Shown: positions 1 through 54,823 of the stretch, one piece after another
Position numbering within the stretch: the first letter of the stretch is position 1
How the letters are laid out: every line of letters starts with the position of its first letter
NCBI GenBank assembly: GCA_016778465.1
Contig: JADHPM010000002.1
Span: forward strand, 1-64,000
Direction of reading: 5' to 3'
Source: Methylophilaceae bacterium
GTDB lineage: Bacteria; Pseudomonadota; Gammaproteobacteria; Burkholderiales; Methylophilaceae
DNA: 64,000 bases
Notes under the pieces: generated by a model
What the model saw: the letters and a program-made list of their open reading frames with translations, nothing else
What the model was told of the DNA's origin: nothing
The model's database searches: none
Made by a program: the position numbers and the translations under genes

Positions 1-73
1 ATAATGCTAGCAGGCTAACAATGGTTTCTGATAATCCACCAGCCCACTTTCTTACGGTTGCTAGTACATCCAT
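1..73 (-). CDS. Start of an unknown minus-strand gene, cut by the window edge
   Basis: Only the first 24 codons are visible, beginning MDVLATVRKWAGG. The start is well supported: an AGGAG Shine-Dalgarno element sits about six bases upstream of the ATG on the minus strand, and the frame stays open to the edge. The end of the visible part (SETIVSLLAL) is turning hydrophobic, so a membrane segment may follow. I do not recognise the family. It is divergent from the pyrophosphatase gene and the two share the intergenic region 74-361. Confidence 0.7.
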   Translation of the reverse strand, partial: MDVLATVRKWAGGLSETIVSLLAL

Positions 74-361
74 ATCTTTCTCCTGTTGTAATATAAAAAA
101 GTTTAAACTTTCTGCTCTTTAAACTTGTAAAAAGTCTACGCCTGTTTTTTTAAAAAAACACAATATGTAGAGTTTTTTTTTAAAAATAAACTAAATGTAG
201 AAATTTTCGTGTAGTATTAGAGGTTCACCTCTCAATTTAGATATTTTGTGGCTTAATGCCAAATAATCCCTTTTATTTAAAAACAATTTCATTTTTTGTA
301 ATAAATTTTTCATAATTGCTAAATACAATCGATCCATCTTCATCCCCTAGGACTCTTCAGT
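74..361. other. Divergent intergenic region upstream of ppa
   Basis: This 288-base AT-rich stretch separates two divergent genes and must hold both promoters. It contains long A and T runs, three TGTAG repeats near 165-213, and a perfect inverted repeat, AGAGGT-TC-ACCTCT, at 219-232. I see no open frame of credible length and no clear Pho box. No single -35/-10 pair stands out. Confidence 0.5.
219..232. promoter_or_regulatory. Perfect 14-base inverted repeat, possible operator
   Basis: AGAGGTTCACCTCT is a perfect palindrome with a two-base centre. The loop is too short for a good RNA hairpin and no T-tract follows, so a dimeric regulator site is likelier than a terminator. It lies midway between the divergent genes. 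The regulator is unknown. Confidence 0.3.
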
Positions 362-940
362 ATGACTAAATTTCTTCTTGTCTTTCTTTTATTACCACTT
401 AGCATTCTTGCCAATCCGGTTAACTCTAATAATTATAAAAACTCAGATGGGTCATACAATTTTTATGTTGAAATTCCAGCTGGTACAAGACAAAAATGGG
501 AAGTTAATAAAGATGGCATACTGGAATGGGAGGAAAAAAAAGGAAAAAAAAGAATTGTTAATTTTTTAAGCTACCCAGGTAATTACGGTTTTATTCCTCA
601 AACAGTTGGTGGCGATGAAGATCCTATCGATGTTATTGATCTTGAGACTGCTGTAAATAGAGGTCAAGTTGTTAGTCGTAAAATAATTGGCGGTATGTAT
701 TTTGAAGACAAAAAAGAGGTCGATGTGAAATTAATTGCGATAGACCCCAATGATATATTTTCAAAATATGATTCGATTGAAGATTTAATGCTTGATAGGC
801 CAGCAGTCATAGAAATTATAAAAAAATGGTTTGAATCTTATAAAAAACCTGGAAAAATGATTTTCTTTCGATTTATGGGTAAGAAAGAGTCTGAAGAAAT
901 GATTGAAAAAGCTTATTTGGAATGGAAAAAAAATAACTAA
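362..940 (+). CDS. ppa: Exported family I inorganic pyrophosphatase
   Basis: The protein hydrolyses pyrophosphate to two phosphates. Family I signatures are intact: EIPAG near residue 38, YPGNYGFIP near 73, and GDEDPIDVIDL, which carries the metal-binding aspartates in the usual D-x-D-x-x-D spacing. Downstream, FEDKKEVDVK keeps the D, D and K expected of the active site, and SYKK matches the conserved Tyr-Lys pair. The oddity is the N-terminus: MTKFLLVFLLLPLSILA reads as a cleavable signal peptide, so the enzyme is probably periplasmic, whereas the usual bacterial PPase is cytosolic. Its 192 residues minus the signal match the family length. It is monocistronic and convergent with glmS. Function is secure; location is inferred. 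Confidence 0.9.
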   Translation: MTKFLLVFLLLPLSILANPVNSNNYKNSDGSYNFYVEIPAGTRQKWEVNKDGILEWEEKKGKKRIVNFLSYPGNYGFIPQTVGGDEDPIDVIDLETAVNRGQVVSRKIIGGMYFEDKKEVDVKLIAIDPNDIFSKYDSIEDLMLDRPAVIEIIKKWFESYKKPGKMIFFRFMGKKESEEMIEKAYLEWKKNN

Positions 941-941
941 G

Positions 942-961
942 AACTTTATCTCAATAAAGTT
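942..961. terminator. Bidirectional terminator between ppa and glmS
   Basis: AACTTTAT-CTCA-ATAAAGTT is a perfect eight-base-pair stem with a four-base loop. It lies between convergent ppa and glmS, with A-rich sequence on the left that reads as a T-tract for the minus strand. The stem is AT-rich and so fairly weak, but its position fits a shared terminator. Confidence 0.6.
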
Positions 962-973
962 TATCGCTTGAAA

Positions 974-2803
974 CTATTCCACAGTAACTGATTTAGCTAA
1001 ATTTCTTGGTTTATCAACATCAGTTTTCTTTATTAATGCAACATGATAAGCCAGTAACTGAACAGGAATAGCGTGAATGATTGCAGATAAAACACCAGTA
1101 TGCCTTGGTGTTCTGATAACTTTAATATCGGGCTCTTCATGAAAGTGGCTATCACTGTCTGCAAATACGTACAATATACCTCCCCGAGCCTTTACCTCTT
1201 GCATATTGGATTTTAATTTTTCTAGCAAAGCGTCATTGGGTGCAATCACAACAACTGGCATATTATTATCTACTAGAGCCAATGGGCCATGTTTTAATTC
1301 GCCCGCTGGGTATGCCTCTGCGTGAATATATGAAATTTCTTTTAATTTTAACGCGCCCTCTAGTGCAATAGGATAGTGGATACCCCTCCCTAAAAATAAA
1401 GCATTATCTCTATTGGCAAAAAGCTTTGCCCATTCTTTTATCTGTGGCTCTAAATTTAATGCAAACTGAATACTTCCTGAAAGACGACGTAATTCTTCTA
1501 AAAATGTTAACTCCAACTTCTTATTAATTTTTTTCTTTTTCTTAGCTAAACTCACACAGATTATGAAGAGCGCCGCTAATTGCGTTGTAAATGCTTTTGT
1601 TGATGCAACACCAATTTCAATACCTGCTCGAGTATAAAGTACCATGTCAGATTCACGAACAATTGCGCTATCTTGGACATTACATATAGTTAAAGTTTTT
1701 TTATGTCCAATTTTTTTGGCATGCTTTAATGCTTCAATTGTATCTAAGGTCTCACCTGATTGCGAAATAGTAATAATAAGTTGCTTAGATTTAAAAACTG
1801 AATCTCGATACCTATACTCACTTGCAATTTCAACATTAGTTGGGATTTGCGCGATTGACTCAAACCAATATTTTGCCGTAAGTCCGGCATAGTAACTTGT
1901 ACCAGCGGCTAAAATTAAAATGCTATCAATATCTTTTAATAATTTTTCAGATTTTTTTCCTAATAACTTTATATCAAAATTATTTTTATCAATAACAGCC
2001 TCAATCGTATCTGCAATTGCACGTGGTTGCTCATAAATTTCTTTTTGCATGAAATGATCATGCGGACCCAGCTCCATTGACTCTAAATTTACTTTGCTGT
2101 TATGAACCTCTCTTGATACCTCTTTCAATTTGGAATCATAAATTTGAAAATTATCTGTAGTAAGCTCAACAATATCACCGTCCTCAAGATAAATTATTTT
2201 TTTAGTAATTGCTAAAAGCGCCGTAACATCAGATGCAATGAAATTCTCACCATTGCCTACTCCTACTATAAGAGGACATCCTTTACGTGCGCATACTAAT
2301 TTATCTGGATGATTTAATGATACAACTCCAATGGCAAACGCACCTCTTAACTCCTTGGTTGCCAAAGTTGTAGCGTGAAGGATATTTTTTTCTTTCTTAT
2401 AAAAATAGTGTATGAGATGAGCAATTACTTCTGTGTCTGTCTCAGACTCAAATTTATAGCCAAGTTTTTTTAATTCTTCACACTGCTCAGAGTGATTTTC
2501 TATAATGCCATTATGAACCACTGCAATTTCATTATTCGAAACATGAGGATGGGCATTTTGTTCCGTGACGCCACCATGAGTTGCCCAACGTGTATGCCCA
2601 ATTCCAAGTAAGCCTTGAAGATCGCCCTGATGTATTTTATTTTTTATTGTTGCTACTCTTCCTGTTGATCTTACCCGCTCAATGCTTCCATTAACTAGGG
2701 CAATCCCAGCCGAATCATAACCACGGTATTCTAACCTCTCTAAACCATTTATTAGATGAGGAAGAATATTTTTTGTTGATATACCGCCGACAATTCCACA
2801 CAT
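974..2803 (-). CDS. glmS: Glucosamine--fructose-6-phosphate aminotransferase (isomerizing)
   Basis: This makes glucosamine-6-phosphate from fructose-6-phosphate and glutamine, the first step towards UDP-GlcNAc for peptidoglycan and LPS. The track start is eight codons too long: the catalytic cysteine must follow the initiator Met, so the start is the ATG giving MCGIVGG at 2803. That leaves 609 residues, the normal length. An N-terminal class II glutamine amidotransferase domain (about 1-225) is followed by two SIS sugar isomerase domains, and the protein ends in the typical KSVTVE. The ATG overlaps the glmU stop by one base (TAATG), so the two pathway genes are translationally coupled. Confidence 0.97.
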
Positions 2804-4155
2804 TATTTCTTGGTTGGCCTTTTCCAATCTGACACTGTTTTTTGCTCGGTTCGTGAAAGGGTTAATTTGTCTGCCGGGACATCTTGAGTAATCGTTGAAC
2901 CTGCCCCAATAGTTGCACCCTGACCAATTTTTACAGGAGCGATTAATTGTGTATCCGAACCAACAAAGACATCAGACTCAATTATTGTTTTATGCTTGTT
3001 TGCGCCATCATAGTTACAGGTAATTGTTCCTGCTCCCACATTAACATTACTACCGATTTCGGCATCACCAATGTAGCTTAAATGATTAATTTTAGTTCCT
3101 TCACCAATTGCAGTATTTTTAAGCTCAACAAAATTTCCTATATGGACATTATCTGCAAGCGTGCTTCCGGGTCTTAAGCGTGCATAGGGACCAATCTTAT
3201 TATGATGGCCAACAACACTTTCATCAATATGCGAGAAAGGTTCGATTACCGTATTCTCTTTTATCTCGCAATTTTTTAATATGCTATAAGCCTTAACATG
3301 AACTCCATCACCGAGAATCACCTTATCTTCAAAAACACAACCAACGTCAATAATGACATCTTTTCCACAAACTAATTGCCCTCTTATATCAATCCTTGAG
3401 GGATCAATCAAAGTGACACCTTCATCCATTAATTTATTTGCTAAACTCATTTGGTAGGCCCTCTCCATCATTGCCAACTCACTTTTGGAGTTAATTCCAG
3501 AAATGGTAATTTCATTTAACGCTTTATAAGACGATATTTCTACATTATCTTCAGCTGCAAATTTTACAATATCTGTTAAATAATACTCCTTTTGTTGATT
3601 ACTATTGCTTAATCTTTTTAACCATAGCTTAAGTTGGTTTGAATCAACCGCCATAATTCCAGTATTAATTTCAGTAATTTTTCTCTCTTCACTGGTGCAG
3701 TCTTTATCTTCAACAATTGCACAAATCTTATTATTTTTTCTAACAATTCGGCCATATCCTGCTGGGTGCTCTTTATCAAATGTCATGATACTGATACCAC
3801 CGTTCGTTTGTCCAACTAACTGATTTAGTTCTTTGGCATCTATTAGGGGAACATCGCCATATAAAATTAAAGTAATATCTCCTTGAATATAAGGGGTAGC
3901 TTGTAATAAAGCATGGCCTGTCCCCAACTGCTCTTTTTGTAATGGCCAGTTGAATATGCTCTGAGAAAACAATGATTTAATACTTTCTGCACGGTACCCA
4001 ATAACGATTGAAATATCATTTGGGTTAAGCGATAGCGCAGAATCGACAACATATTTTATGAGAGGTTTTTTGGCAAGAGGCTGCAATACCTTGGGAAGCT
4101 CAGAACACATCCGCGTTCCTTTTCCAGCAGCTAAAATCACAACACTTAATGTCAT
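2803..4155 (-). CDS. glmU: Bifunctional UDP-GlcNAc pyrophosphorylase / glucosamine-1-phosphate acetyltransferase
   Basis: GlmU carries out the last two steps of UDP-GlcNAc synthesis: acetylation of glucosamine-1-phosphate, then uridylylation. The N-terminal nucleotidyltransferase domain opens with LAAGKGTRM and [13 protein letters not shown]. The C-terminal half is a left-handed beta-helix with hexapeptide repeats ending in the acetyltransferase region ([20 protein letters not shown]). The first 12 codons of the track ORF run back towards the terminator and are not conserved, so I start at [11 protein letters not shown] (4155), giving 450 residues. It is first of a glmU-glmS pair lying just downstream of the atp operon terminator. 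Confidence 0.96.
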
Positions 4156-54789: not shown

Positions 54790-54823
54790 TTGTCATCTAA
54801 CTGTCATATTTCTTTCATATGAT
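54790..54823 (+). promoter_or_regulatory. Strong Pho-box promoter upstream of ppx
   Basis: TTGTCAT (54790), CTGTCAT (54801) and CTTTCAT (54812) are three direct repeats at an exact 11-base period; the middle one is the perfect PhoB half-site. Ten bases after it, TATGAT (54818-54823) gives a good -10. Predicted transcription begins near 54830. The array lies between divergent ppk and ppx and may serve both. Confidence 0.85.

Follow-up and report, generated by a model that had tools for sequence, protein, structure and literature searches.

Family I inorganic pyrophosphatases (PPases) are usually regarded as cytosolic housekeeping enzymes. Of the closest described systems, the canonical Ppa (NF002317/PRK01250, the E. 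coli PPase) has the PF00719 fold, the catalytic residues and the metal ligands in common with the protein considered here, which is encoded in a 64,000-nucleotide stretch of a Methylophilaceae bacterium genome (the window). In contrast to canonical Ppa the window protein has a leader, is separated from the canonical sequences by a 99% branch and, at 77.9 bits, does not reach the NF002317 equivalog cut-off of 200 bits. Eukaryotic family I PPases (yeast IPP1, human PPA1 and the Plasmodium enzyme 5wru) are among its best sequence and fold matches, although it is without their long extensions, is of prokaryotic length and is predicted to be exported. In trypanosomatids the acidocalcisomal soluble PPase is a family I enzyme of a non-cytosolic compartment, found there alongside VTC and a H+-PPase; these acidocalcisomal or vacuolar enzymes (5c5v, 5cux, 5cuy) have an extra N-terminal domain and belong to a eukaryotic organelle, whereas the window genome is without VTC. 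The membrane H+-PPase (PF03030) also hydrolyses PPi and is present in the same genome, but is an unrelated integral membrane pump working on cytosolic PPi. The Clostridium perfringens locus NELoc-2 holds a VTC domain/'tubulin'/CotH gene group (PMC2879425), VTC and CotH standing together there as they do beside nine of the exported PPases described below, with no PPase seen in the available part of that account.

A family I pyrophosphatase with a leader

The window gene (362..940, + strand) encodes a family I inorganic pyrophosphatase of 192 aa with a predicted N-terminal signal peptide, and matches PF00719 (catalytic domain 464..928, + strand) at E 2e-33 and 115.7 bits, exceeding the curated cut-off of 23.5. 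That all catalytic residues are kept, as originally claimed, was borne out on alignment with the E. coli PPase: E20, K29, E31, Y51, Y55, D65, D67 and D70 are present, as are D97, D102, K104, Y141 and K142, and the equivalent of R43 is taken to be R64, one alignment column off. The PPi and metal ligands typical of family I PPases are present. An AlphaFold model (mean pLDDT 95.1), the input for which left out one row from a plasmid record, matches solved family I PPases by Foldseek with a probability of 1.00, yeast, human, plant and bacterial enzymes being among the matches. From the conserved active site we infer that the enzyme would be catalytically competent. The GC content of the ORF is 0.31, against 0.36 for the window.

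The leader comprises residues 1-17 (362..412, + strand), with cleavage predicted after A17 (an inferred site), and reads MTKFLLVFLLLPLSILA followed by NP, a single Lys preceding a hydrophobic core whose best 9-residue mean hydropathy is 3.1. The ATG is preceded by an AGGA at a distance of 9 nt. The leader call is based on a hydropathy rule (hydropathy of 2.2 or more over 9 residues near an upstream start, with at least 25 residues ahead of the domain) and on conservation among relatives. The same rule is passed by none of 59 canonical and none of 12 viral PPases (0/71 controls). The clear secretory signal of the original prediction held up; it looks like a Sec-type leader, and secretion is predicted. 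After codon 1 no further in-frame ATG, GTG or TTG occurs ahead of the catalytic domain, so that a product lacking the leader would have to begin at an unusual start.

A clade of predicted exported enzymes and its neighbourhoods

A single-sequence scan found no relatives in genomes and viral contigs, and it was a three-sequence alignment that found them, 80 loci being kept from a scan of GTDB genomes. The leader rule was passed by 61 of the 80; canonical enzymes of Caulobacter and Methylobacterium account for 13 of the 19 that failed it. The other six (L086, L089, L093, L097, L132 and L134), together with the plasmid copy L037, were assigned to the exported group by eye, their leaders being far upstream in fusions, their scores just below the cut-off or their genes at contig edges; the assignment of L089 is doubtful. 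In a tree of 132 rows (a quick search, no bootstrap) the 70 exported rows are set apart from the rest by a branch of 99% SH-aLRT support, and among them the window PPase belongs to a five-row subclade with L068, G074, L069 and L070. The starting expectation that family I PPases are normally cytosolic stands for the canonical clade and not for the one holding the window protein. Members come from Bacteroidota, Pseudomonadota, Planctomycetota, Gemmatimonadota, Cyanobacteriota (Prochlorococcus MIT 9302), Campylobacterota and others, and taxonomy is mixed even inside small subclades, a pattern that horizontal transfer would be expected to give. Nearly all members have leaders, of the signal-peptide type in some and the lipoprotein type in others, and because these differ in type and sequence it is export that seems conserved and not the leader sequence. 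Active-site residues are present in nearly all of the 70 members, K142 being replaced by Asp in 12 of them, a change that leaves the window protein unaffected. Another full family I PPase is encoded in about 29 of 50 host genomes. A word search of the accessible text of a 2024 review of microbial PPases (PMC11210485) gave no mention of an exported bacterial family I enzyme, and a literature search with little subscription coverage returned no relevant paper on a periplasmic, secreted or extracellular bacterial PPase; as far as could be searched, the clade is undescribed in print.

A Vibrio pelagius plasmid (L037, 4975-6519) encodes a fusion of signal peptide, ParBc_2 and PPase that is annotated as a ParB-like protein only, and a Marinomonas ORF (L086) has the same length and a similar N-terminus. 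This plasmid fusion is the best plasmid match, at 45% identity, and was rejected as a direct source. The viral family I PPases from IMG/VR (L148-L159) carry a VNAIVEIPKGTS motif and form their own group (95% SH-aLRT); a phage origin was likewise rejected, phage and viral PPases being without leaders and on the canonical side of the tree.

By neighbour clustering, at least two of the trio VTC, DUF4956 and CotH-like occur no more than a few genes away from nine exported PPases (L033 of G074, L069, L070, L091, L098, L112, L115, L120 and L134) from at least three phyla. In the Pelagibacteraceae locus L134 (2658-5486) an exported-clade PPase is fused to a CotH-like protein and lies between DUF4956 and VTC genes, and the CotH-like part of the fusion matches the CotH-like neighbour of the G074 enzyme at 5e-40. 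Nine adjacent VTC-PPase pairs were observed in a count that covered the exported PPases, against about 0.09 expected by chance, although the nine loci are not fully independent. VTC was found in 22 of 50 exported-PPase host genomes and in 8 of 369 class-sample genomes, a comparison in which the hosts mix phyla and the class baseline does not. This neighbourhood suggests an envelope role in polyphosphate or pyrophosphate metabolism for those relatives. Among the neighbours of the non-VTC loci a pooled Pfam tally gave no recurrent phosphate-transport family.

Promoter-proximal Pho-box-like sites at p<0.05 occur at 7 of 62 exported PPases, while among 56 canonical controls there are 2. One subclade, of Halomonas, Paracoccaceae, Hyphomonadaceae and Enterovibrio, accounts for six of the seven, and in it the matches reach 13/14 (L103), 12/14 (L097) and 11/14 (L096), with L099, L095 and L075 weaker. 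The seventh is that of the window, a weak site TTGTAATAAATTTTTCAT (295..312, + strand) lying 66 bp before the start codon with 10/14 matches. Its p = 0.05 is uncorrected and comes from one of 62 promoters tested, so the site is no evidence by itself; no strict Pho box with three or fewer mismatches is found near the window gene, and the signal is absent in its nearest relatives.

Insertion site and genomic setting

The gene lies on an insert of about 0.74 kb (236..973) between conserved flanks (1-235 and 975 onward). On one side is glmS (974..2827, - strand), whose 3' end is the insertion hotspot, and on the other a gene for a conserved membrane protein of 78 aa, of which the contig end leaves the 5' part (1..74, - strand). 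Window positions 1-235 and 975-1100 align to genus mates and the stretch between does not; G080, a genus mate in which the insert is absent, has an empty site with the same two flanks 19 bp apart, and at this site other genus mates have different genes, in some cases together with additional incomplete copies of the glmS 3' end. Taken together the aligned flanks, the empty site and the varied genes in mates make the PPase gene cargo at a glmS 3'-end hotspot, and an accessory gene acquired horizontally there is the best reading. Elsewhere in the genus (L160-L172) the hotspot cargo includes a likely cytosine methyltransferase, polysaccharide genes and small secreted proteins, L164 and L171 being the loci with the additional glmS 3' copies.

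The genome (G000, 1,237,308 bases or 1.24 Mb, 99% complete) gave on search no second family I PPase and no family II PPase. It does encode one full-length H+-PPase (PF03030) with its catalytic DVGADLVGKVE and DNVGDNVGD motifs intact, and so the window enzyme is not the only pyrophosphatase of its genome, in line with the original prediction. A GNTTKAVTKG stretch in this protein presumably marks a K+-independent pump. Among 31 genomes of the genus a soluble PPase is found only in G000 and G074, the two being 53% identical and both with leaders; a H+-PPase is found in all genus mates among the matches listed, and nearly all genomes of other genera in the family keep the canonical soluble PPase. 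From this distribution it seems that the genus lost the canonical cytosolic enzyme and relies on the H+-PPase pump, two members later gaining an exported PPase, and the pump probably handles cytosolic PPi in the window organism. With a real leader, the existence of an exported clade and an intact H+-PPase for cytosolic PPi, export of the window PPase is well supported.

Genes for PAP2, ppk1, ppx, dagK and a calcineurin-like phosphoesterase lie at 50.9-58.4 kb of the window. The original prediction had set the exported PPase in line with this phosphate island, but position gives this link no support, the ppk1/ppx/PAP2/glycosyltransferase region (50.9-61 kb) being 50 kb away and the PPase gene having a small insert of its own next to glmS. 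Between ppk1 and ppx lie two overlapping near-perfect Pho boxes (54790-54818, one mismatch each), which suggest that these polyphosphate genes are under PhoB control. At L068 2007-3479 the nearest relative is 1.5 kb from a glycosyltransferase-diacylglycerol kinase ORF, which recalls the lipid genes at window 50.9-61 kb.

Possible functions of the putatively exported enzyme

We consider it probable that the window PPase is a horizontally acquired periplasmic enzyme freeing Pi from extracytoplasmic PPi. Sec would export it in soluble form, beyond the cytoplasmic membrane it would split PPi, perhaps also short polyphosphate, so that Pi is freed for uptake, and scavenging of Pi would be the benefit of an accessory gene gained at the glmS 3' end. 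Cytosolic PPi would be left to the H+-PPase since the genus seems to have lost its canonical soluble enzyme. The originally proposed release of phosphate from external PPi is in this respect plausible, mainly through the relatives, Pho boxes being present in some, and less so through the window's own borderline site; the distance of the gene from the phosphate genes of the window weighs against it too, and the VTC/CotH cluster beside nine relatives points to a different or additional role. That role could be in an envelope system whose basis is a polyphosphate polymerase with a VTC domain, together with DUF4956 (a membrane protein) and a CotH-like kinase that is exported. Within it the PPase would clear away PPi, or cut back short polyphosphate, that is produced or consumed on the membrane's outer face, much as the acidocalcisomal soluble PPases do beside VTC in protists; the window copy would be a descendant now alone. 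The nine loci, the PPase-CotH-like fusion, the excess of adjacent pairs and the frequency of VTC in host genomes argue for such a system, but we regard it as an unlikely account of the window gene: most exported PPases are away from VTC, in the class sample the genomes with VTC have at best canonical-type PPase matches, and VTC is found neither in the genome of L068 nor, by genome search for PF09359, in G000, where 361 bp of contig precede the PPase gene. A VTC module in the window organism's own genome was accordingly rejected, and the VTC link is a clue to the clade and not an explanation of the window gene.

That the exported enzyme serves some end other than Pi supply, its main target being a different phosphoanhydride or else PPi bound as ligand of a mineral or metal (for instance in iron or calcium pyrophosphate), is improbable. 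The lack of a recurrent phosphate-transport family beside the non-VTC loci would fit this, as would the K142 to Asp change in some members, though the window protein does not share the latter and retains the family I PPi and metal ligands. Being the only soluble PPase in G000, the window enzyme could instead replace the lost cytosolic one, its leader being poorly used or the protein kept in the cytosol; this is very unlikely given an intact H+-PPase, the survival of most genus mates without any soluble PPase, leaders of varied sequence and type throughout the clade and the lack of an internal start. Periplasmic release of Pi from PPi remains the preferred reading for the window gene. A wider proposition, which we put forward as doubtful, is that exported family I PPases make up a pan-bacterial clade whose partner is a VTC/DUF4956/CotH module of the envelope, the two forming a periplasmic polyphosphate/pyrophosphate system like that of protist acidocalcisomes, members also being traded singly among marine bacteria as phosphate-scavenging genes.

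If the broad exported clade is real, extracytoplasmic PPi would be a true substrate for many bacteria, marine ones being prominent among those found, and metagenome counts of 'ppa' would lump housekeeping enzymes together with ones that may serve nutrient acquisition. The repeated VTC/CotH link, including one gene fusion, offers a testable way into the function of the VTC/CotH cluster.
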